Shown piece after piece: positions 14,405 through 29,637 of a stretch of DNA of 64,000 bases. Under the pieces are notes generated by a model. The model saw only the letters and a program-made list of their open reading frames with translations, was not told where the DNA came from and did no database searches. Each line of letters begins with the position of its first letter. Within the stretch, counting starts at the first letter, position 1. The DNA is taken from NCBI RefSeq assembly GCF_016658865.1, contig NZ_CP067992.1, positions 701,001 to 765,000 on the forward strand, read 5' to 3'. A program made the translations under genes and the position numbers. This DNA comes from Streptococcus mitis (GTDB taxonomy: Bacteria > Bacillota > Bacilli > Lactobacillales > Streptococcaceae).

Positions 14405-14968
14405 ATGAAGGAAAAAGACATTCAAAGAGAAACAAGCCAGATTGTAGAAGATGTGTTGGAAAAGGCCAATTTGAAGCAAGGATCTATCTTTGTTTTGGGC
14501 CTTTCTTCTAGTGAAGTGATAGGTGGTCAGATTGGCAAGGAATCCAGCAAAGAAATTGGGGAAATCATTGTGAAAACCATTCTAGATATCCTAGAGGAAA
14601 AAGGAATTCATCTAGCCGTTCAAGGTTGTGAACATGTCAATCGGGCTCTCGTTGTTGAACGTCAGGTTGCAGAGCAGTTTGGTCTGGAAATCGTCAGTGT
14701 CCTTCCTACTCTTCATGCAGGAGGTTCGGGTCAATTGGCGGCCTTCAAGTTTATGCAGGATCCAGTTGAGGTTGAATTTATCAAGGCCCATGCTGGATTG
14801 GATATCGGAGACACTGCAATTGGTATGCATGTCAAGCATGTTCAAGTTCCGATTCGCCCTCTTTTGAGAGAAATTGGGCATGCCCATGTAACGGCTCTTG
14901 CAAGTCGTCCCAAATTAATCGGAGGTGCGCGTGCGCATTATCCGCAAGATTCTATTAGAAAGTCGTGA
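14405..14968 (+). CDS. TIGR01440 / DUF436 (YwlG-like) protein
   Basis: 187-residue cytosolic protein of the UPF0340/YwlG family. Conserved stretches include [27 protein letters not shown] and the His-rich end [17 protein letters not shown] followed by [12 protein letters not shown]. The family is structurally known but has no assigned reaction. The start at 14405 (MKEKDIQRE) follows AAGAGGT; the ATG at 14384 is less likely. Its stop overlaps or nearly touches the zmpB start, which couples a housekeeping-type gene to a giant surface protease, the same neighbour as in pneumococcus. Confidence 0.85.
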
Positions 14969-14970
14969 GA

Positions 14971-17900
14971 ATGAGAAAAACAAAACAACAACTAGAAAAA
15001 ATCACCAAATATTCGATTCGTAAGCTCACTGTTGGGGTAGGTCCTGTAGCAATCGGGGCCTTCCTTTTTGGTGCCAGTGCCCTTTCAGTAGATAAGGTAC
15101 AAGCCAATGAAGTTGGTGGAGCTCATAGCGTTCATTATCGTTATTTGGCGGAGCAGGAATTGACCGAGTCTGAAAAAGCCCTGATTCATCATGAGGTTCC
15201 AACAGAATTTCAAGATGATGATATTCTCTATGTAGTTTATCGCAAGAAAGCTAGTACCTACCAAGAACTTCCTTATACAGGGAGTAAAGAATTAGCCTTG
15301 GCTGGTATAGGGTTGGCTACGGCTTCTTTGGCTGTTTTATTAATCTCTAAAAAACATCGTGGTAAGGTGCTTGGTGTCTTATTAATTAGTTCGATTGGTG
15401 CAAGCAACTTTGTTCCTTTCACCACATTTGCGTTTGAAAATAAAGAATTGCTTTCTTATAACCAAACTATTTCGGCTTCTACACATGAAGGTTTGGCTGA
15501 AGGGATTATCCACATTGATGGCTATGAATATATTGGTTACTTCAAGGAAGCAGAACTTCACCCATCAAGACCAGCTTCAGCTGAGAAGCCTCAGTTGCCA
15601 GTAGAAAAGCAAAGTGCAAATGAAATCGAGAAGACAGAAGTAGTTCAAGAAACACCAGTTTCTGAGAAACATCAGACAAGACTGGAAGAGAGCTTGGTGG
15701 AGATTCCTTTTGAAACAATCACAAGTCCAGATGCGAATCTAGCAGAAGGACAGACTCGTATCGTCACAGCTGGAGTAAATGGTCAGCGTCGCATTGTAAC
15801 CAAAGTATCGATGGTTAATGGTCAAGAAGTTAGAGAAGTCATCGAAGACCAAGTGGTTCAAAATCCTGTTTCGCAAGTCATTGCAGTCGGAACTAAGAAA
15901 GAAGAGCAACCTGCCCCAACTCCAGTACCACAAGCTGAACCAACGCATCAGGTAGCTAAAGGAACGCAAGAGGCAGGCAAAGAAGGTCAAGCCTTAACGC
16001 AACCAACCTTACCAGAGGTTCCAGTTGAAGCAAAAGGAACCAAAGAGGCAGGCAAAGCAGGTCAAGCTCTAACACAACCAGAACTACCAGAGGCTCCAGT
16101 TGAAGCAAAAGGAACCCAAGAGGCAGACAAAGCAGGTCAAGCTCTAACACAACCAGAACTACCAGAGGCTCCAGTTGAAGCAAAAGGTACCCAAGAGGAA
16201 GGCAAAGCAGGTCAAGCTCTTACACAGCCAAAATTACCAGAAGCCCAAGTAGAAGTAAAAGGTACACAAGAGGAAGGTAAAGCAGGTCAAGCCCTTATAC
16301 AAGAACAGTTACCTGAGTACAAAGTAACTGAGGGAGCGGTTACGAAAGAAACTACTACTGAGATTGACTATAAGACAGAAATTATCGAGGATCCAACCAA
16401 ATATACGGATGAAGAAACTGTAGTTCAAGATGGAGAAAAGGGCAGTAAAATTACCAAAACGACTTATAAGACTCTCGAAGGTGTTGAGACTGAGCAAGTT
16501 TTAAATACAACAACTACTGTTGTCAAAGAACCAGTCACTAAAAAAATAAGCCGTGGGACAAAACCAATTGAAGGAACTCTGGTGGAAGAAAGTCTTGAAA
16601 AGATTCCATTTAAGGAAGTTCTTAAAGAAGATGACCAACTGAAAAAGGGTGAAAGAGTTACTGTCCAAGAAGGAAAAGATGGGCAGAAAAAAGTTACCAA
16701 GACTTACAAAACTCTCAAAGGTTTAAAAACTGAAGAAGCACCTAAAATTGTGGAACAGGTTCTGGAGTTAGACCAAGATCGTATCGTCAAATTAGGAACT
16801 AAAAACTTTGAAAAACCAATCTTAAGTTTGTCACTTGTTGATGTTAATGATTTGAAACGATCATCTCAAATTCGTTATAATTTGGAAAATCCAAGTAAGG
16901 CAGCCATTAAATCTATTACCTTAACTCTGAAAAAAGGTGATGAGATTGTCAAAACCTTGAATGTTTCACCAGACGACTTGACAACGACCCTGACAGATTT
17001 GCAGTACTACAAGGATTATAAACTTGAAACGAAGATGGTTTATGACCGTGGTGAGGGTGATGAGGAAGAAGTTCTGAAGGAAGAACCTCTAAGAATTGAC
17101 CTCAAAAAAGTTGAAATCAAAAACATCAAAGAAACAAGCTTGATGAGTGTGGACGCTGATGGTAACGAAACAGATACTAGTTTGCTTACAGAAAAACCAG
17201 CTGATGTTGCCCCACTTTATCTACGAGTGACCGCTCACGACAACAAGGTTACACGACTTGCTGTTGACAAAATTGAAGAAGTCACAGTTGATGGCAAGAC
17301 CCTGTATAAGGTCACTGCCAAAGCACCAGACTTAGTTCAACGGAATGCTGACAACACACTGAACGAAGAGTATGTTCATTACTTTGAAAAACAAAAAGCA
17401 CACGATGGTGATGTATATTATAGCTTTAACGACCTAGTAACGGCTATGAAAGCTAATCCAAGTGGTACCTTTAAACTTGGTGCAGATTTGAATGCAGCAA
17501 ATGTACCAACTCCGAATAAACAATATGTACCTGGTAAATTTAGCGGAACTTTAACAAGTGTTGACGGTAAACAATATACCATTCATAATATGGCTCGTCA
17601 GTTATTCGATAACGTTGAAGGCGGTACAGTTAAAAACATTAACTTAGGTAATGTTAATATTAATATGCCTTGGATTGAAAATATTTCCGCACTATCAAGA
17701 GTAATTAAAAATGCCACAGTTGAAAATGTTAAGGTAACTGGTAGTATCCTTGGTAAAGATGGTATTGCTGGTATCGTAAATAAAGGAGATACTGGTGGAC
17801 TTCTTAAAAATGTTGCTTTCATCGGTAAACTAACAGGTGTCGGTAATAAAGGTTGGGATCTTGGTGGTATCGCCGGAGAACTTTGGCGTGGTAATATTAA

Positions 17901-20868
17901 ACATGCATACGTAGATGCTGATATTGTTGCAGATAGAGCACGTGTTGGTGGTCTTGTTGCTAGAACAGATAATGGTTCTGATCCTAATGGTATTGATAAA
18001 TACGCTTCTGTTCGTAACGCTGTTACTAAAGGAACTATTGATGTGAAGAACCCTGTTGAGGTAGGTGGTTTCATTAGTAAAAACTGGACATGGGGGCGTG
18101 TTGCTGACACAGTTTCAATGATGAAAGTCAAAAACGGTGAAGAATTCTACGGTTCTAGAGATTTAGAAGCAGAAGGTGGATATTACACAAAAAACTGGAT
18201 TGAAAGAAACTACGTTGTTAAAGATGTGAGTGAAGGTTCTCACTCATTTAACGGTTCTCGTAGTAATCGAATCCAAGAAATCAGCCTAGAAGATGCAAAT
18301 AAAAAAATAGAATCATTCGGAATTACAGCTGATAAGTTTGAAATTAAACCTCTTGTTGAAGATGCACTTAATAACGTAAAACCAAAAACAGATACTTATA
18401 AAGATACTCAAGATTATGACGTATCTCGCGAACTTGCTTATCGTAACATCGAAAAACTTCAACCATTCTACAATAAAGAATGGATTGTCAACCAAGGGAA
18501 CAAGATTCCTGCAGATTCTAAATTACTAACTACTGAAGTTTTATCTGTTACAGGTATGAAAGATGGACAATTTGTGACCGACTTATCAGATGCTGACCAT
18601 ATTATGATTCATTATGCTGATAAGACGAAAGAAATTAAGGCTATTACACAAAAAGAATCTAAGGTTCAACAAGTTCGTGAATATAGTATTGAAGGATTGG
18701 GTGATATTGTCTATACACCAAATATGGTTGTTAAAGATAGGACACAATTGATCAGCGATATCAAAGCTAAATTAGCTTCTGTTGAACTTGATTCAGATGA
18801 AGTTCGTAAGATTAATAACAATCCTAAGATGTTATACATGGAAGAAAGCTTCAAAGAAGTAAAAGATAATCTTGATGCTTTAGTTAAAGCTTTAGTTGAA
18901 AATGAAGACCATCAATTAAATACGGACGAAGCAGCTAAACGTGCATTGATTAAAAAAGTTGAAGATAACAAAGCTAAAATCATGTTAGCTCTGGCTTACT
19001 TAAACCAATACTATGGAATTAAATTTGACGGATTAAATATCAAAAATATGATGACCTTCAAACCTGATTTCTACGGTAAGAACGTTAACGTACTTGATAG
19101 ATTAATCAGCTTCGCATCAAATGGTAATAACCTAAAAGGTGATCAATCACATGATGCATTTAACAGAGCTCTTGCAAGTGCTACTGGTAAAGCTAACTTA
19201 CACGAATTCCTGAAGTACAACATGGAATTATTCACTAGTGAAACAGATATGAATACTTGGTTCAAGAACAACATTGCAGATAACGCTTATGTTGTTGAGA
19301 AACAATCATCAAATCCTGATTTTGCGAATAAGAAACATAAATTGTATGAAGTAATTAATAATGGACATCACGGACGTTATATTCTACCACTTCTGAACCT
19401 GAAGAAAGCGCATATGATCTTAATTACGACCTATAATACCATTGCGTTTAGTTCATTTGAGAAATATGGTAAGAATACGGCAGAAGAACGTGAAGCGTTC
19501 AAGAAGCAAGTTGATTTACGTGCGCAAGAACAAATTAATTATTTAGACTTCTGGTCAAGACTTGCTGCTGATAATGTACGAAATAATCTTCTTAAGAGTG
19601 AGAATATGGTACCATCTGCCATTTGGGATAACCATGATGTACCAGGTTTGGGATGGGTTGACCGTATGGGACATACGAAGAAAGGCGATTTTGCTCCAAT
19701 TCGTGAATTCTATGGTCCGACTGATAAGTGGCACGGATACAATGGAATGGGTGCATACGCTTATATCTTCCAAAATCCACAACCACAAGAGGCTGTATAT
19801 TACATTATCTCTAGCATGATTAGTGATTTTGGTACATCTGCATTCACTCACGAAACAACTCACATCAATGACCGTATGGCCTACTTAGGAACATGGCGTC
19901 ACCGTGAAGGAACAGATGTTGAAGCCTTTGCTCAAGGTATGTTACAATCACCATCAGTTTCCAATCCAAATGGTGAATATGGTGCCTTAGGATTAAACAT
20001 GGCTTACGAACGTCAAAATGATGGAAATCAAATTTACAACTATAATCCGAATGTGTTAAATAGTCGTGAGAAAATCGACCACTACATGAAGAATTACAAT
20101 GAATCCATGATGATGCTTGATTACTTAGAAGCTGAGTCTGTAATCAAGAAAAATACTGGAACAAATGATAAGTGGTTCAAGAAGATCGATAAGAAATATC
20201 GTGAAAAAGCGGATCGCAATGGCTTAGTTGGTGAGCCACATCAATGGGATTTAGTTCGTGATTTGAATGATGACGAAAAGAATACGAAGCTGACAAGTAT
20301 TGATCAACTGGTTGATGGAAACTTTGCAACGAAACATGGATTACCAGGAAATGGTCATTACCGTACTGAAGGATTTGATTCTGCTTATACTGTAGTAAAT
20401 ATGATGACAGGTATTTATGGTGGTAATACAAGTAAGAGTGCGGTTGGTTCAATCTCATTCAAACATAATACCTTCCGTATGTGGGGATACTTCGGTTATT
20501 TAGACGGATTCTTAGGTTATGCATCAAACAAATACAAGCAAGAATCTAAAGCTGCTGGTAATGTAGGTCTTGGTGATGACTTTATTATTAATAAAGTTTC
20601 TAACGGCAAATTCCAAAGCTTAGAAGCATGGAAGAAAGCATGGTATCATGAAGTACACGAAAAAGCCCAAAGAGGTTTTGTTGAAATTGAAATCGATGGT
20701 CAAAAGATTTCAACTTACGCACAACTTCAGACCTTATTTGATGCCGCTGTCGAAAAAGATCTTCAAGGCAATGATTTCAAGAATACTGTAGATCTTAAAT
20801 GGAAGGTTTACAAACAACTCTTGCAAAAATCAGATGGATTTGCTGGTGATTTATTCACTAAAGCATAA
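14971..20868 (+). CDS. zmpB: ZmpB-type cell-surface zinc metalloprotease, peptidase family M26
   Basis: 1965-residue surface protease. YSIRK signal region at 14-35 and an unusual N-terminal sorting motif LPYTG (residues 100-104) followed by two hydrophobic stretches, the M26 layout in which the protein is anchored by its N-terminus. Then come a 25-residue repeat block (15955-16329), G5-type domains (segments such as GQRRIVTKVSMVNGQEVREV), a GLUG-like Gly-rich region near residue 900, and the M26 domain with HETTH at 1627-1631 and a Glu about 20 residues on (DVEAF) as third zinc ligand. A GTG at 14965 overlapping the upstream stop is an alternative start. Host glycoprotein or IgA-like substrates are inferred from the family. 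Confidence 0.93.
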   Translation: MRKTKQQLEKITKYSIRKLTVGVGPVAIGAFLFGASALSVDKVQANEVGGAHSVHYRYLAEQELTESEKALIHHEVPTEFQDDDILYVVYRKKASTYQELPYTGSKELALAGIGLATASLAVLLISKKHRGKVLGVLLISSIGASNFVPFTTFAFENKELLSYNQTISASTHEGLAEGIIHIDGYEYIGYFKEAELHPSRPASAEKPQLPVEKQSANEIEKTEVVQETPVSEKHQTRLEESLVEIPFETITSPDANLAEGQTRIVTAGVNGQRRIVTKVSMVNGQEVREVIEDQVVQNPVSQVIAVGTKKEEQPAPTPVPQAEPTHQVAKGTQEAGKEGQALTQPTLPEVPVEAKGTKEAGKAGQALTQPELPEAPVEAKGTQEADKAGQALTQPELPEAPVEAKGTQEEGKAGQALTQPKLPEAQVEVKGTQEEGKAGQALIQEQLPEYKVTEGAVTKETTTEIDYKTEIIEDPTKYTDEETVVQDGEKGSKITKTTYKTLEGVETEQVLNTTTTVVKEPVTKKISRGTKPIEGTLVEESLEKIPFKEVLKEDDQLKKGERVTVQEGKDGQKKVTKTYKTLKGLKTEEAPKIVEQVLELDQDRIVKLGTKNFEKPILSLSLVDVNDLKRSSQIRYNLENPSKAAIKSITLTLKKGDEIVKTLNVSPDDLTTTLTDLQYYKDYKLETKMVYDRGEGDEEEVLKEEPLRIDLKKVEIKNIKETSLMSVDADGNETDTSLLTEKPADVAPLYLRVTAHDNKVTRLAVDKIEEVTVDGKTLYKVTAKAPDLVQRNADNTLNEEYVHYFEKQKAHDGDVYYSFNDLVTAMKANPSGTFKLGADLNAANVPTPNKQYVPGKFSGTLTSVDGKQYTIHNMARQLFDNVEGGTVKNINLGNVNINMPWIENISALSRVIKNATVENVKVTGSILGKDGIAGIVNKGDTGGLLKNVAFIGKLTGVGNKGWDLGGIAGELWRGNIKHAYVDADIVADRARVGGLVARTDNGSDPNGIDKYASVRNAVTKGTIDVKNPVEVGGFISKNWTWGRVADTVSMMKVKNGEEFYGSRDLEAEGGYYTKNWIERNYVVKDVSEGSHSFNGSRSNRIQEISLEDANKKIESFGITADKFEIKPLVEDALNNVKPKTDTYKDTQDYDVSRELAYRNIEKLQPFYNKEWIVNQGNKIPADSKLLTTEVLSVTGMKDGQFVTDLSDADHIMIHYADKTKEIKAITQKESKVQQVREYSIEGLGDIVYTPNMVVKDRTQLISDIKAKLASVELDSDEVRKINNNPKMLYMEESFKEVKDNLDALVKALVENEDHQLNTDEAAKRALIKKVEDNKAKIMLALAYLNQYYGIKFDGLNIKNMMTFKPDFYGKNVNVLDRLISFASNGNNLKGDQSHDAFNRALASATGKANLHEFLKYNMELFTSETDMNTWFKNNIADNAYVVEKQSSNPDFANKKHKLYEVINNGHHGRYILPLLNLKKAHMILITTYNTIAFSSFEKYGKNTAEEREAFKKQVDLRAQEQINYLDFWSRLAADNVRNNLLKSENMVPSAIWDNHDVPGLGWVDRMGHTKKGDFAPIREFYGPTDKWHGYNGMGAYAYIFQNPQPQEAVYYIISSMISDFGTSAFTHETTHINDRMAYLGTWRHREGTDVEAFAQGMLQSPSVSNPNGEYGALGLNMAYERQNDGNQIYNYNPNVLNSREKIDHYMKNYNESMMMLDYLEAESVIKKNTGTNDKWFKKIDKKYREKADRNGLVGEPHQWDLVRDLNDDEKNTKLTSIDQLVDGNFATKHGLPGNGHYRTEGFDSAYTVVNMMTGIYGGNTSKSAVGSISFKHNTFRMWGYFGYLDGFLGYASNKYKQESKAAGNVGLGDDFIINKVSNGKFQSLEAWKKAWYHEVHEKAQRGFVEIEIDGQKISTYAQLQTLFDAAVEKDLQGNDFKNTVDLKWKVYKQLLQKSDGFAGDLFTKA
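15955..16329 (+). repeat. Five 75-bp in-frame repeats inside zmpB
   Basis: Five units of 25 codons starting at 15955, 16030, 16105, 16180 and 16255. Each reads approximately AKGTQEAGKAGQALTQPELP followed by EAPVE; units 2 and 3 are nearly identical and units 1 and 5 diverge. The block is a flexible Pro/Glu/Lys spacer between the membrane-proximal anchor and the G5 domains and is a likely site of length variation between strains. Confidence 0.9.
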
Positions 20869-23329: not shown

Positions 23330-24259
23330 ATGAACAAACGTCTATTTTTTAAAATGAGTCTGGCTACCTTGCCAGTTTTAGCCTTGTTTTCACAGCCTGT
23401 GTTAGCGGAAGAAAACATTCATTTTTCTAGCTGTAAGGAAGCTTGGGCGAATGGATATGCGGATATTCATGAGGGAGAACCTGGTTATTCTGCCAAGTTA
23501 GACCGTGATCATGATGGTGTGGCGTGTGAATTGAAAAATGCTCCAAAAGGTGCTTTCAAAGCAAAGCAATCAACTTCGGCTCAAAACAATACAAGTTCAG
23601 CAACAACAAGTGGCTGGGTTAAGCAGGATGGTGCATGGTATTACTTTGATGGAAATGGAAATCCAGTGAAAAATGCTTGGCAGGGAAGCTATTATCTGAA
23701 AGCGGATGGTAAAATGGCACAGAGCGAATGGATTTATGACTCTTCTTATCAAGCTTGGTATTATTTGAAATCAGATGGTTCTTATGCAAAAAATGCATGG
23801 CAAGGAGCTTACTACCTTAAATCAAATGGTAAGATGGCTAAAGGTGAGTGGGTCTACGATAGTAGCTACAAATCATACTACTACTTGACATCAGAAGGCA
23901 GTTACGCTCGTAACACTTGGTCAGGTAATTATTATCTCAAATCAGATGGTAAGATGGCTAAAGGTGAGTGGGTCTACGATAGTAGCTACAAATCATACTA
24001 CTACTTGACATCAGAAGGCAGTTACGCTCGTAATACTTGGTCAGGTAATTATTATCTCAAATCAGATGGTAAGATGGCTAAAGGTGAGTGGATATATGAT
24101 AGTAACTACAAATCATATTACTACTTGACATCAGAAGGCAGTTACGCTCGTAACACTTGGGTAGGCAATTACTATCTTAAATCAAACGGTAAAATGGCTG
24201 TTAATGAACGTACACCAGATGGTTATCGTGTAGATGGTTCAGGTAAATGGGTTAAATAA
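23330..24259 (+). CDS. Choline-binding protein with N-terminal Excalibur domain (CbpL-like, lacking the Ltp module)
   Basis: 309-residue secreted protein. Signal peptide ~1-26 (cleavage near VLAEE). Residues ~30-65 form an Excalibur calcium-binding domain with CKEAWANGYADI and DRDHDGVACE. A short Ser/Thr linker is followed by about nine choline-binding repeats (SGWVKQDGAWYYF, then [23 protein letters not shown] units), ending in the usual RVDGSGKWVK tail. It should sit on phosphocholine of teichoic acids. Pneumococcal CbpL (the positional counterpart) is known as Excalibur plus repeats plus a C-terminal Ltp domain; here the Ltp part is absent and occurs in the next two genes. Two 120-bp repeats (23841-23960 and 23961-24080) are nearly identical. 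Confidence 0.88.
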   Translation: MNKRLFFKMSLATLPVLALFSQPVLAEENIHFSSCKEAWANGYADIHEGEPGYSAKLDRDHDGVACELKNAPKGAFKAKQSTSAQNNTSSATTSGWVKQDGAWYYFDGNGNPVKNAWQGSYYLKADGKMAQSEWIYDSSYQAWYYLKSDGSYAKNAWQGAYYLKSNGKMAKGEWVYDSSYKSYYYLTSEGSYARNTWSGNYYLKSDGKMAKGEWVYDSSYKSYYYLTSEGSYARNTWSGNYYLKSDGKMAKGEWIYDSNYKSYYYLTSEGSYARNTWVGNYYLKSNGKMAVNERTPDGYRVDGSGKWVK

Positions 24260-24420: not shown

Positions 24421-26253
24421 ATGAGAAGATCAAAAAAAATTTTGGTTACAAGTTTAGCAGCAACTACTTTTGCACTTGTTTCTCTTTCAGATACAATGGG
24501 GATGTTGCCTTTCTCATCTCAGAAAGTATCTGCTCAAGAAAAGGATGCGTCTAAAAATGGTAAAATTGTAAAAGAGAATACAAAACCCGCACCAAAACCT
24601 GCGCCGAAGCCGGCACCAAAACCCGCACCAAAACCTGCGCCGAAGCCAGCATCAAAACCTGCGCCGAAGCCGGCACCAAAACCTGCGCCGAAGCCAGCAT
24701 CAAAACCTGCGCCGAAGCCAGCACCAAAACCCGCGCCGAAACCGGCACCAAAACCGGCACCAAAACCCGCGCCAAAACCTGCGCCGAAGCCAGCACCAAA
24801 ACCCGCGCCGAAGCCGGCACCAAAACCGATTGAAAAAGCTAAAGAAACAACTCCTAAACAGGATAAATCAAAATCTAAAGCTCAGTCTGGCTGGGTAGGG
24901 TCTTCGTACTATGAAAATGGTGCTAAAGTTACTAATAAGTGGATTTTTAATAAAAAGGTTAACGCCTACTTCTATTTAAATGCATCGGGAAATTATGTCC
25001 AAAATGCCTGGGTCGGTAATTACTATCTAAAATCTGATGGTAAGAGAGCTAAGAACGAATGGATTTATGATAAGAAATACTCTGCACATTATTATTTAAC
25101 AGCAGAAGGTAGCTATGCTCGTAACACCTGGGTAGGAAATTACTACCTTAAATCAGATGGTAAGAGAGCTAAGAACGAATGGGTTTATGATAAGAAATCG
25201 AGTTCATATTTTTATCTAACATCAGAAGGAAGTTCAGCTCGTAACACTTGGGTAGGCAATTACTATCTTAAATCAGATGGTAAAATGGCTAAGAGTGAAT
25301 GGATTTATGATAAAAACTATGGCTCATATTATTATCTAACCGCAGAAGGTAGCTACGCTCGAAACGCATGGGTAGGTAATTACTATCTAAAATCAGACGG
25401 GAAAAGAGCTAAAAATGAATGGTTTTATGACAATAACTATGGGTCATACTATTATTTAACAGGAGAAGGTAGCTACGCTCGTAATACTTGGGTAGGGAAT
25501 TATTATCTCAAATCAGATGGAAAGATGGCCAAGAATGAATGGATTTATGACAAAAACTACGGTTCATATTATTATCTAACAGGAGAAGGAAGCTACGCAC
25601 GTAACAAATGGGTAGGTAATTACTATCTAAACTCAAACGGTAAGATGGCCAAAAATGAGTGGGTAGATGGTGGTAATTATTATGTTGATTCTGACGGAAA
25701 AATAGTTAAAAGTGACTGGATTTATGATAAAAACTATGGTTCATATTATTATCTAACATCAGAAGGCACCTATGCTCGCAACAAATGGATAGGAAATTAC
25801 TATCTTAAATCAGACGGTAAGATGGCCAAGAATGAATGGGTAGATGGCGGTCGTTACTATGTTAAATCAGATGGTGAAATGGTTTGGGGCAAATGGGTAG
25901 ATGGTGGCCGTTACTATGTAGGATACGACGGTGTCTGGCAACCAAAACCAGCAGACGGGAATCCATACTCAGCAGCTTTAAAGGAAGCACAAGGTTATAA
26001 TAGGATTCATTTGTCAAAAAAAGGAATTTATGAGATGTTAATTTATAAAGGTTTTAATAGTGACGCTGCACAATATGCTATCAATCATTTGCAAGCAGAC
26101 TATAAGGCGAATGCATTAGCTACAGCAAGAGAATACCGAAAGATTCTCCATTTATCAAAGACAGAAATTTATGAGAGGCTAACTTCTCCTTATTATTTAA
26201 AAAAATTTACCAAAGAAGAAGCAAACTATGCAATTCAACATTTGGGTGACTAA
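24421..26253 (+). CDS. Choline-binding surface protein with Lys-Pro-Ala-Pro spacer and C-terminal Ltp repeats (paralog 1)
   Basis: 610 residues. Signal peptide ~1-40 ([20 protein letters not shown], cleavage near VSAQE). Residues ~55-138 are an uninterrupted (A/S)PKP repeat, a rigid wall-spanning spacer. Residues ~155-510 hold some 18 choline-binding repeats of the [18 protein letters not shown] type. Residues ~514-610 form two Ltp (PF07553-like) helical repeats, each with the pattern LSKxxIYExL ... F..xAAxYAIxHL. Ltp of Streptococcus thermophilus phage TP-J34 blocks DNA injection by other phages. No lipobox: wall attachment is by choline. The promoter and first ~60 codons match paralog 2, so the pair arose by duplication. 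Confidence 0.88.
   Translation: MRRSKKILVTSLAATTFALVSLSDTMGMLPFSSQKVSAQEKDASKNGKIVKENTKPAPKPAPKPAPKPAPKPAPKPASKPAPKPAPKPAPKPASKPAPKPAPKPAPKPAPKPAPKPAPKPAPKPAPKPAPKPAPKPIEKAKETTPKQDKSKSKAQSGWVGSSYYENGAKVTNKWIFNKKVNAYFYLNASGNYVQNAWVGNYYLKSDGKRAKNEWIYDKKYSAHYYLTAEGSYARNTWVGNYYLKSDGKRAKNEWVYDKKSSSYFYLTSEGSSARNTWVGNYYLKSDGKMAKSEWIYDKNYGSYYYLTAEGSYARNAWVGNYYLKSDGKRAKNEWFYDNNYGSYYYLTGEGSYARNTWVGNYYLKSDGKMAKNEWIYDKNYGSYYYLTGEGSYARNKWVGNYYLNSNGKMAKNEWVDGGNYYVDSDGKIVKSDWIYDKNYGSYYYLTSEGTYARNKWIGNYYLKSDGKMAKNEWVDGGRYYVKSDGEMVWGKWVDGGRYYVGYDGVWQPKPADGNPYSAALKEAQGYNRIHLSKKGIYEMLIYKGFNSDAAQYAINHLQADYKANALATAREYRKILHLSKTEIYERLTSPYYLKKFTKEEANYAIQHLGD
24583..24831 (+). repeat. Lys-Pro-Ala-Pro coding repeat, paralog 1
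   Basis: About 250 bases built from a 12-base unit (AAACCTGCGCCG / AAGCCGGCACCA type) encoding KPAP, with occasional KPAS variants. Synonymous third-base differences alternate between adjacent units, pointing to expansion of 24-base or longer blocks. Such arrays change length readily by slippage or recombination. Confidence 0.92.
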
Positions 26254-26333
26254 TTATTTAGAATAACTATTTTAACACCAATTGACAAGTCAAGTACAAC
26301 AAAGTTGTTCCTCTGATTAAGAGAGTATCTTTC

Positions 26334-26366
26334 AAGCTGTTTGAGTGAGCTCAAACAGCTTTTTTG
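26334..26366 (+). terminator. Terminator after paralog 1
   Basis: Perfect 12-bp stem AAGCTGTTTGAG (26334-26345) with CTCAAACAGCTT (26350-26361), 4-base loop, then T5. Confidence 0.9.
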
Positions 26367-26480
26367 CGGACTATAGCCAAGTTCAAAATAGAAGGTTCTC
26401 TGATTGTCTGTCCACCCAGAACAGAATGGATTTTCCAATTTCAAAAAGGGGTTGGAGTTTATAGGTGTGAACAAAGGCAT

Positions 26481-26582
26481 CTATGCTATGTCCCGTTGGT
26501 TTCTCCCCAGTCTATGAGCAAACTCAGCCGGTTTGAGTCCTACGTTTAAATAAGCTTCAATTTCTACTCGCTCAGCTTCAGA
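26481..26582 (-). pseudogene. IS30-like transposase remnant (HTH segment only)
   Basis: A 33-codon minus-strand frame, open upstream to a stop and closed at 26481, reads SEAERVEIEAYLNVGLKPAE followed by FAHRLGRN. This is the N-terminal helix-turn-helix of IS30-family transposases (ER..IE..L..G.....A..LGR). No catalytic domain or terminal inverted repeats are present. It is debris of an insertion sequence between the tandem paralogs and may mark how the duplication arose. Confidence 0.5.
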
Positions 26583-26629
26583 TTAGTGCTTGTATAGTTA
26601 TTATTTTAATGTAAAAAAGATTAAGGATA

Positions 26630-26638
26630 TGATATACT
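26630..26638 (+). promoter_or_regulatory. Extended -10 promoter of the second Ltp choline-binding gene
   Basis: TGATATACT, copy of the paralog 1 promoter with one base changed in the spacer position, 32 bases before the ATG. Confidence 0.65.
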
Positions 26639-26670
26639 ATAAGTGTAAATCATAAGAAAAGGAGATTTTT

Positions 26671-28563
26671 ATGAGAAAATCAAAAAAAATTTTGGTTACA
26701 AGTTTAGCAGCAACTACTTTTGCACTTGTTTCTCTTTCAGATACAATGGGGGTGTTGCCTTTCTCGCCTCAGAAAGTATCTGCTCAAGAAAAGGATGCGT
26801 CTAAAAATGGTAAGATTGTAAAAGAGAATAAAAAAACCGCGCCTAAGCCGGCACCAAAACCCGCGCCTAAGCCGGCACCAAAATCTGCGCCTAAGCCGGC
26901 ACCAAAACCCGCTCCGAAGCCAGCACCAAAACCCGCGCCGAAGCCGGCACCAAAACCCGCACCAAAACCCGCGCCGAAGCCGGCACCAAAACCCGCACCA
27001 AAACCTGCGCCGAAGCCGGCACCAAAACCTGCGCCGAAGCCAGTATCAAAACCCGCGCCGAAGCCAGTATCAAAACCTGCGCTTAAGCCGGCACCAAAAC
27101 CTGCGCTGAAGCCAGCATCAAAACCTACGCCGAAGCCAGCACCAAAACCTGCGCCGAAGCCGGCACCAAAACCTGCGCCGAAGCCGGCACCAAAACCCGC
27201 GCCGAAGCCAGCACCAAAACCCGCGCCGAAGCCAGCACCAAAACCTGCGCCAAAACCGGCACCAAAACCCACACCAAAGCCCACGCCAAAGCCGGCACCA
27301 AAACCGACTGAAAAAGCTAAAGAGACAACTCCTAAACAGGATAAATCACAATCTAAAGTTCAGTCTGGCTGGGTAGGAAATTACTACCTCAAATCAGATG
27401 GGAAGAGAGCTAAAAATGAATGGGTAGATGGTGGTCGTTATTATGTTGATTCTGATGGAAAAAAGGTTAAAAGTGACTGGATTTATGATAAAAACTATGG
27501 ATCCTATTATTATCTAACAGCAGAAGGAAGCTCTGCTCGCAATAAATGGGTAGGAAATTATTACCTCAAATCAGATGGAAAGATGGCCAAGAATGAATGG
27601 GTAGATGGTGGCCGTTATTATGTTGAATCAGATGGTAAAATGGCTAGGGATAAATGGGTAGATGGTGGCCGTCACTATGTAGGATACGATGGTGTGCGGC
27701 AACCAAAACTAGATGGGAAGCAGTACAATGCTGCTTTAAATATAGCGAAAAGCTATAATTCGGTTTTTCATAAGTCAAAAAAAGCTCTCTATGACTCATT
27801 AACGTGGTATGGTTTTTCAAGTTCAGCAGCGCAGTATGCCATCGATCACTTGAATGCAGATTACAAAGCAAATGCCTTAATTACAGCAAGAGAATACCGA
27901 AAATATAACAATCTCTCAAAGACAGAAATTTATGAGAGGCTAACTTCTCCTTATTTTAGAAAATTTACCAAAGAAGAAGCCGACTATGCCATTCAAAAAC
28001 TTAATCTACCATCAGAAGGCAGCCAAGCTCGCAATAAATGGGTAGGAAATTATTATTTCAAATCAGATGGAAAGATGGCCAAGAATGAATGGGTAGATGG
28101 TGGCCGTTACTATGTTGATTCTGAAGGCAAAATGGTAAGGGGCAAATGGGTAGATGGTGGCCGTTATTATGTTGAATCAGATGGTAAAATGGCTAGGGAT
28201 AAATGGGTAGATGGTGGCCGTCACTATGTAGGATACGATGGTGTGCGGCAACCAAAACTAGATGGGAAGCAGTACAATGCTGCTTTAAATATAGCGAAAA
28301 GCTATAATTCGGTTTTTCATAAGTCAAAAAAAGCTCTCTATGACTCATTAACGTGGTATGGTTTTTCAAGTTCAGCAGCGCAGTATGCCATCGATCACTT
28401 GAATGCAGATTACAAAGCAAATGCCTTAATTACAGCAAGAGAATACCGAAAATATAACAATCTCTCAAAGACAGAAATTTATGAGAGGCTAACTTCTTCT
28501 TGGATTGGAAAATTTACAAAAGAAGAAGCAAACTATGCAATTCAAAAACTAGGGGATAAATAG
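26671..28563 (+). CDS. Choline-binding surface protein with long Lys-Pro-Ala-Pro spacer and two Ltp pairs (paralog 2)
   Basis: 630 residues. Signal peptide and first ~55 residues are nearly identical to paralog 1. The (A/S/T/V)PKP spacer is about twice as long (~55-213). Choline-binding repeats are few (about seven at 231-345), then an Ltp pair at ~350-446, a second short choline-binding stretch (~450-530) and a second Ltp pair at ~533-630. Each pair carries [20 protein letters not shown] and [12 protein letters not shown] motifs. The second half was created by an internal duplication of 549-bp offset with a ~353-bp perfectly identical core, so it is recent. Role as for paralog 1: wall-bound, possibly phage-blocking. 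Confidence 0.87.
26833..27310 (+). repeat. Lys-Pro-Ala-Pro coding repeat, paralog 2
   Basis: About 480 bases of the same 12-base unit as in paralog 1, nearly twice as long, with some KPVS, KPAL and KPTP variants toward the middle and end. The opposite strand therefore shows long glycine-rich open frames that are artefacts. Confidence 0.92.
27596..27948 (+). repeat. Direct repeat, copy 1 of internal duplication in paralog 2
   Basis: About 353 bases identical to 28145-28497 (offset 549). It covers the last two choline-binding repeats and most of an Ltp pair. The upstream flanks are similar but not identical. Confidence 0.92.
28145..28497 (+). repeat. Direct repeat, copy 2 of internal duplication in paralog 2
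   Basis: Identical to 27596-27948 over ~353 bases. After the repeat the copies diverge: copy 2 continues to TSSWIGKF and the gene end, copy 1 to TSPYFRKF and a further choline-binding stretch. Confidence 0.92.
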
Positions 28564-28629: not shown

Positions 28630-28677
28630 ATATCTGTAAGCATTTTCAATTACTACACAATGAAAAAGGAGAATATG

Positions 28678-29637
28678 ATGAGTCAAAAGATTATTGGGAT
28701 TGACCTTGGTGGAACTTCTATCAAATTTGCAATTTTAACTCAAGAGGGAGAAATCCAAGAAAAATGGTCTATCAAGACAAATATTTTGGATGAAGGAAGC
28801 CACATTGTAGATGATATGATTGAGTCTATTCAGCATCGTTTGGACTTGCTTGGATTGGCAGCAGCGGACTTCCAAGGAATTGGGATGGGATCACCAGGTG
28901 TGGTTGACCGTGAAAAAGGGACTGTTATCGGTGCCTACAACCTCAACTGGAAAACTCTTCAACCAATTAAAGAAAAAATTGAAAAAGCCTTGGGCATTCC
29001 ATTCTTCATCGATAATGATGCCAACGTAGCTGCTCTTGGTGAGCGTTGGATGGGGGCTGGTGATAACCAACCAGATGTTGTCTTTATGACACTTGGTACA
29101 GGTGTTGGTGGCGGTATCGTCGCAGAAGGAAAATTGCTTCATGGTGTTGCTGGTGCAGCAGGGGAGCTTGGCCACATCACTGTTGACTTTGACCAACCAA
29201 TCGCATGTACTTGCGGTAAGAAAGGCTGTCTTGAGACAGTTGCTTCAGCAACAGGGATTGTCAACTTGACTCGTCGTTATGCTGATGAATACGAAGGTGA
29301 TGCAGCCTTGAAACGCTTGATTGATAATGGAGAAGAAGTAACCGCTAAGACTGTCTTTGATCTCGCAAAAGAAGGAGACGACCTTGCTTTGATTGTTTAC
29401 CGTAACTTCTCACGTTACTTGGGAATCGCTTGTGCTAACATCGGATCAATCCTAAACCCATCAACCATCGTCATCGGTGGTGGTGTATCAGCTGCAGGAG
29501 AATTCCTTCTACAAGGTGTTCAAAAAGTTTACGACGAAAATACCTTCCCACAAGTACGCACAACAACTAAATTGGCTCTTGCAACTCTAGGAAATGACGC
29601 TGGAGTTATCGGAGCAGCATCACTTGTATTGCAATAA
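28678..29637 (+). CDS. gki: Glucokinase, ROK family
   Basis: 319-residue ATP-dependent glucokinase that phosphorylates free cytoplasmic glucose. N-terminal ATP site GIDLGGTSIKFA, glucose-binding region IDNDANVAALGERW and GTGVGGGIV, and the ROK zinc-type motif CTCGKKGCLETVASATGI are present. I use the ATG at 28678 (MSQKIIGID) because AAAAGGAGA lies six bases before it; the ATGs at 28660 and 28675 are in frame but less likely. A consensus promoter precedes it, and a long hairpin separates it from thyA. The gene is used in streptococcal sequence typing. Confidence 0.95.
   Translation: MSQKIIGIDLGGTSIKFAILTQEGEIQEKWSIKTNILDEGSHIVDDMIESIQHRLDLLGLAAADFQGIGMGSPGVVDREKGTVIGAYNLNWKTLQPIKEKIEKALGIPFFIDNDANVAALGERWMGAGDNQPDVVFMTLGTGVGGGIVAEGKLLHGVAGAAGELGHITVDFDQPIACTCGKKGCLETVASATGIVNLTRRYADEYEGDAALKRLIDNGEEVTAKTVFDLAKEGDDLALIVYRNFSRYLGIACANIGSILNPSTIVIGGGVSAAGEFLLQGVQKVYDENTFPQVRTTTKLALATLGNDAGVIGAASLVLQ

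Follow-up and report, generated by a model that had tools for sequence, protein, structure and literature searches.

Do two adjacent genes of Streptococcus mitis, whose products join choline-binding repeats to Ltp repeats like those of the phage TP-J34 exclusion protein, act against phages, or do they serve the cell surface in some other way? The question is raised by the window analysed here, a stretch of 64,000 nucleotides (contig NZ_CP067992.1, positions 701,001 to 765,000), where the two genes lie on the forward strand: P1 at 24421-26253, an open reading frame (ORF) of 610 amino acids (aa), and P2 at 26671-28563, an ORF of 630 aa. A preliminary description of this DNA had proposed that they form a wall-held system stopping the entry of phage DNA. 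We rank above phage exclusion, at a probability of about one half, the reading that both are accessory proteins of the cbpL locus, displayed on the surface by choline binding and acting there as binders similar to CbpL of Streptococcus pneumoniae.

P1 consists of a signal peptide, a spacer of nearly only Lys, Pro and Ala, choline-binding repeats and one Ltp module of two PF07553 repeats (residues 514-610). P2 begins in the same way but adds, after its first Ltp module, further choline-binding repeats and a second Ltp module, which gives four PF07553 repeats. The spacers are 83 (P1) and 155 (P2) residues long. PF07553 was matched in two stretches of P1 (E=3.7e-27) and four of P2 (E=1.6e-51), and Choline_bind_2 (PF19085) in eight stretches of P1 (E=6e-78) and five of P2 (E=1.8e-61), all far over the curated cut-offs. 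These matches agree with the preliminary description in its three joined parts, in the count of two against four Ltp repeats and in the residue ranges it gave (514-610 in P1, 350-446 and 533-630 in P2), where significant PF07553 matches were found. All six PF07553 matches found in this genome fall within the pair. The modules are basic, with an isoelectric point (pI) of 9.2 in P1 (25963-26250, plus strand) and 9.4 in both modules of P2 (27718-28014 and 28267-28560, plus strand), and past residue 40 the net charge is +43 in P1 and +64 in P2. Neither protein contains a cysteine. The Excalibur domain PF05901, present in the product of the neighbouring gene at 23330-24259, has no match in P1 or P2, which are thus CbpL-like and not CbpL proper, and a PADLOC search gave no defence-system match. 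Two long antisense ORFs on the minus strand, at 26784-27284 and 24551-24823, run through the Lys/Pro/Ala spacer and are most likely by-products of the repeat.

Searched alone, the Ltp segments matched phrog_4980, annotated as 'superinfection exclusion' (E 2e-30 to 3.3e-31), and that of P1 matched the solved structure of TP-J34 Ltp, 4EQQ, by sequence (E=2e-10). An AlphaFold model of the P1 module (predicted local distance difference test, pLDDT, 97) resembles 4EQQ with a template modelling score (TM) of 0.86 and a root-mean-square deviation of 1.2 Å, a comparison that the preliminary description had suggested. The Ltp modules of P1 and P2 are therefore predicted to adopt the tandem three-helix fold of TP-J34 Ltp. 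The second-ranked solved fold was RecX, a helical protein (TM 0.62-0.67, E about 1 or above). A lysin with an Ltp tail, considered for a match to phrog_7854 ('endolysin'), was rejected; the Ltp segments alone do not match phrog_7854, and the match is for that reason ascribed to the choline repeats.

In charge the modules differ from TP-J34 Ltp. We measured 29 P1/P2-like modules, three from the window and 26 from 14 other loci, and all 29 were basic (pI 8.8-9.7, charge +2 to +7). In the other wall type, the four full-length modules (two from Excalibur proteins, one from a 647-aa protein without Excalibur and one from a fragment) have pI values of 6.3-7.1. Among the full-length modules of phages, taken from 14 of 77 matched records, 12 of 14 have a pI below 7, and so have all 72 non-streptococcal modules that were left when eight streptococcal ones were set aside from the best 80 of 496 loci. 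Five alignment columns hold Lys or Arg in 29/29 P1/P2-like modules and in 0-36% of the 14 phage modules. Furthermore, of the 16 positions that are acidic in TP-J34 Ltp, the P1/P2 modules keep five to six acidic and have two to four turned basic. The idea that basic charge is unique to the wall Ltp of the mitis group was rejected: 17 of 18 other streptococcal Ltp loci gave a module and the first module was positive in 5/15 non-mitis proteins; slightly basic too is the Ltp of phage SW18, which its lipobox marks as a lipoprotein, and one of three modules from viral-contig relatives has a pI of 8.1. The lipobox pattern flagged seven Ltp proteins of this other streptococcal set, as well as the Excalibur protein of genome G007, which carries a basic Ltp remnant. 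Five of the seven are acidic throughout, one being from the mitis-like genome G067; those of G037 and G061 have basic first modules, and their motif, at residues 7-10, is probably not a true lipobox. Classical Ltp lipoproteins, short and acidic, occur in some streptococcal genomes (G067, locus L032, and G143, locus L028), in G067 on a different contig from gki.

A tree of the unique modules, with the 14 phage modules and 42 of the 72 non-streptococcal relatives (thinned by number), was midpoint-rooted and rests on few alignment columns, as the tool itself warned. A branch with support 98/96 sets 28 wall-Ltp rows (25 P1/P2-like, the other three from the second wall type) apart from the rest, with none of the 14 phage rows and none of the 42 non-streptococcal rows among them. 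On this tree the P1/P2 modules are part of a streptococcal wall lineage that is separate from the phage Ltps compared, 14 in number. What the preliminary description called the same module as in TP-J34 Ltp is thus the same in fold and family, but of reversed charge and of a lineage apart from the phage ones.

The two genes have near-identical beginnings. The 84 bp upstream of P1 (24337-24420, plus strand, with a ribosome-binding site and a promoter-like stretch) and of P2 (26587-26670, plus strand) are 91% identical (77/85 aligned columns), and the first 165 nt of the genes are 96% identical. In the Ltp repeats of P1 and P2, however, likeness drops to 54.5% for the first and about 80% for the second, and the P1 module falls in one subclade of the tree (100/100) and the P2 modules in another (99/94). 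Because near-identical gene starts are combined with diverged first repeats in separate subclades, the pair has the look of two diverged alleles joined together, by duplication plus exchange between alleles; the earlier account, paralogy by duplication, is too simple. The intergenic spacer (26254-26586, no strand assigned) is part of a stretch, 26254-26620, that occurs once in this genome. Inside P2 there is an internal duplication at 27596-28497 (plus strand), in which 27596-27948 equals 28145-28497 over 353 bp exactly, at an offset of 549. The first repeats of the two Ltp modules are identical, silent sites included, in P2 and in 5 of 12 two-module loci. By this identity and the 353-bp exact repeat, the two Ltp pairs of P2 are a recent copy made inside the gene.

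Between genomes the first repeat is less conserved than the second (0.69 versus 0.80 over 16 modules, in 92/120 pairs), with dN/dS (ratio of nonsynonymous to synonymous substitution rates) of 0.48 and 0.33, respectively. The first repeat falls into two discrete types, within which conservation is 0.90 and 0.83, and P1 and P2 carry one each. A fast-diversifying specificity face was considered for the first repeat and rejected, as the low conservation is due to these two types, each conserved inside; by the alignments what is left is a two-type polymorphism only.

The position of the pair provides a further link to CbpL. The pair is flanked on one side by a gene for a CbpL-like protein with an Excalibur domain, choline-binding repeats and no Ltp (23330-24259, plus strand), and on the other by the conserved order gki, thyA, miaA, hflX; gki, glucokinase (28660-29637, plus strand), is named by synteny with PMC5137146 and forms the right border of a variable slot. 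According to the available text of that paper, cbpL is preceded by zmpB and pabB and followed by gki and thyA. Across the genus PF07553 was found in 59 of 247 genomes, and in 23 of the 95 mitis-like genomes, defined as those with gki 95-100% identical. Ltp lies at this locus in 21 of these 23 carriers (19 read loci, the window and one by coordinates) and elsewhere in two. Among 20 loci chosen for PF07553, the Ltp gene is located between pab and gki in 18, adjoins gki at a contig end in one and is elsewhere in one; 11 of the 20 encode an intact two-module P2-like protein, and a tandem of two spacer-type genes as in the window was seen in none. We also sampled 20 of the 72 PF07553-negative mitis-like genomes, mainly those ranked highest in the gki list. 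In the 19 that were readable the Excalibur protein adjoins gki in 17 (with or without a hydrolase gene), one has the hydrolase only, one has neither, and none has Ltp at this locus. The site between pab and gki is therefore a variable slot, occupied in the related genomes read by the Excalibur type, the spacer type, both or neither. At this site, in two related genomes, a P2-like gene (locus L052) and an Excalibur-Ltp gene (L054) are each broken into two reading frames, so the locus also decays. Further upstream in the window, 14965-20868 encodes a very large surface protein with a HETTH zinc-protease motif and an LPYTG-like motif near its N-terminus, which from its sequence looks like the ZmpB-type metalloprotease placed here by the available part of PMC5137146.

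If P1 and P2 are surface binders, they would be secreted via their ordinary signal peptides and held non-covalently by their repeats on the phosphorylcholine of teichoic acids; the repeats most naturally suggest such display through choline. The C-terminal Ltp module, a tandem of helix-turn-helix units, would then be the binding head, drawn from a streptococcal wall lineage that turned basic. CbpL has the same layout of choline-binding and Ltp parts, with the Excalibur domain in place of the spacer. As proposed for CbpL, the head most likely would recognise an extracellular ligand, which may be an anionic polymer or a protein of the host's matrix or serum, and duplication with allele exchange at the slot may have put two head types side by side in this strain. 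In the available text of PMC5137146, CbpL is not a lipoprotein and is freed from the cell by choline chloride, and cbpL mutants are attenuated and more readily phagocytosed. Several points weigh against this reading. In the available text of the CbpL paper the role of the Ltp domain is not separated from that of the other modules (PMC5137146). The CbpL phenotypes may not carry over to P1 and P2, since these have no Excalibur domain. The basic charge, too, may reflect nothing more than life in an anionic wall or off the membrane, as the positive first modules in 5/15 non-mitis streptococcal proteins suggest. Finally, phage ones apart, the tree holds no streptococcal Ltp other than the wall types and so does not include those five basic proteins.

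The main rival is phage exclusion at the wall, in which choline-held Ltp heads would catch the tape-measure protein or tail tip and stop DNA entry, and two head types would widen the spectrum. This is possible, though we consider it unlikely. It is suggested by the TP-J34 Ltp fold and the PHROG class, and the missing lipid anchor is no bar to it, because UsLtp1, a secreted non-lipoprotein derivative of TP-J34 Ltp, was no weaker than the lipoprotein against any of the 14 lactococcal phages in the available part of PMC3952083 and, in Lactococcus lactis, blocked all eight listed 936 and P335 phages (efficiency of plating <1e-9). In the same source the Ltps of TP-J34 and TP-778, whose phage spectra are not alike, owe most of their differences to the first repeat; P1 and P2 also bring two first-repeat types, but these are discrete and conserved and show no open-ended diversification. 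A wall protein that stops phage DNA entry has a precedent in CwpV of Clostridioides difficile (available text of PMC4737114), and the patchy presence at the locus, in 21/95 mitis-like genomes, would suit a defence. However, importance is ascribed to the negative charges of the TP-J34 Ltp repeat domain in its contact with the positive C-terminal region of the tape-measure protein (PMC3952083, in part), and here basic modules replace them. Six reference tape-measure proteins had suggested acidic ones in mitis-group phages, and a charge swap on both sides was considered. We took 60 proteins from 60 of 73 PF10145 matches (20 mitis-like, 40 other; two are short, 443 and 696 aa) and clustered them with the six references into 16 mitis-like and 31 other clusters. 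Net-negative proteins were found in 14/16 mitis-like against 18/31 other clusters, which would suit a basic head (Fisher p=0.052, borderline), but net charge per length showed no rank difference between the groups (p=0.28), nor did the charge at the C-terminal end, over 100 residues (p=0.63) or over 200 (p=0.18), where the last-200 medians are positive in both groups. The swap is thus unsupported, although not dead. Carriage of a tape-measure gene, as PF10145 only, is not tied to Ltp at the locus (3/21 with and 15/74 without it, p=0.75). Besides the lack of phage rows in the wall clade, no phage-borne choline-binding Ltp was found in the viral-contig scan, whose three relatives are short proteins with no visible choline repeats, and none of eight phage Ltp proteins scanned against Pfam has choline repeats. 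The mechanism of TP-J34 Ltp, which the preliminary description carried over to the wall, is thus only partly supported. A host-encoded, choline-anchored blocker of phage DNA entry, having shed the lipid, changed the charge and acquired two head types, both displayed by this strain, would act on mitis-group phages through another contact than the acidic face of TP-J34 Ltp, and this version is likewise doubtful.

A second rival is a binder of extracellular DNA or another polyanion such as teichoic acid, where basic head and basic spacer would serve biofilm, uptake or wall cohesion. The module charges, the net charge of the whole proteins, the conserved Lys/Arg columns and the distant likeness to RecX all fit this proposal, but that likeness is weak, and we think the proposal quite improbable. 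Least likely is that P1 and P2 matter mainly by covering phosphorylcholine, with the Ltp head incidental. Pneumophage adsorption does require choline-containing teichoic acid (PMC4652380, in the available text) and the choline repeats of P1 and P2 are many; other choline-binding proteins would serve equally, however, and the compared Ltp modules have a dN/dS below 1, as if kept for use.

Of the systems described before, CbpL (SP_0667 / SPD_0579) is among the closest to P1 and P2. It combines an Excalibur domain, a choline-binding module and a C-terminal Ltp domain already likened to that of TP-J34, with the missing lipobox noted (PMC5137146, available text), so that the preliminary description was right about the module, but choline display is no new setting for it: in that source both the combination and the locus are already published as CbpL. 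The same text contains no phage test of CbpL. P1 and P2 share with CbpL the choline-binding repeats, a C-terminal Ltp without lipobox and the site between pabB and gki. As far as that text shows, CbpL differs in having Excalibur and a single Ltp stretch (residues 283-332, pI 5.99), where P1 and P2 have the long Lys/Pro/Ala spacer and basic modules, with two Ltp repeats in P1 and four in P2; in the window the Excalibur protein is without Ltp, which resides in P1 and P2 instead. The open-licence literature searched yielded no description of the tandem pair, of the basic wall lineage or of a spacer-type architecture bearing one or two modules, and it gave nothing on Ltp with choline-binding and S. 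mitis, or on PF07553. With TP-J34 Ltp, from a Streptococcus thermophilus phage, the pair has the tandem PF07553 three-helix repeats in common. That protein, however, is an acidic lipoprotein of 142 aa encoded by the phage beside the integrase, whereas P1 and P2 are large, chromosomal choline-binding proteins with neither the lipid-anchored N-terminal cysteine nor the acidic repeat domain nor a place in a temperate-phage lysogeny module. CwpV is likewise a large repeat-bearing wall protein and, by its description only, comparable; it belongs to another cell-wall protein family and has a phase-variable switch. Proteins named 'Ltp family lipoprotein' by NCBI in Streptococcus oralis and S. mitis, with 3107 relatives reported and choline-binding and Ltp domains in all 120 of the 120 listed, are the same kind of protein as P1 and P2, for which the name is misleading because they have no cysteine. 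A study of S. oralis exposed to daptomycin (PMC10376253, in part) reports substitutions around residue 770 in a protein named 'Ltp family lipoprotein'. P1 and P2 thus tie a widespread annotation to the CbpL locus, with a name that is wrong for both and a head whose charge has changed. Should phages prove to be their target, P1 and P2 would be the chromosomal counterpart, held at the wall, of an exclusion system known from prophages; otherwise they would illustrate how a fold of phage type can be put to new use in binding at the surface.

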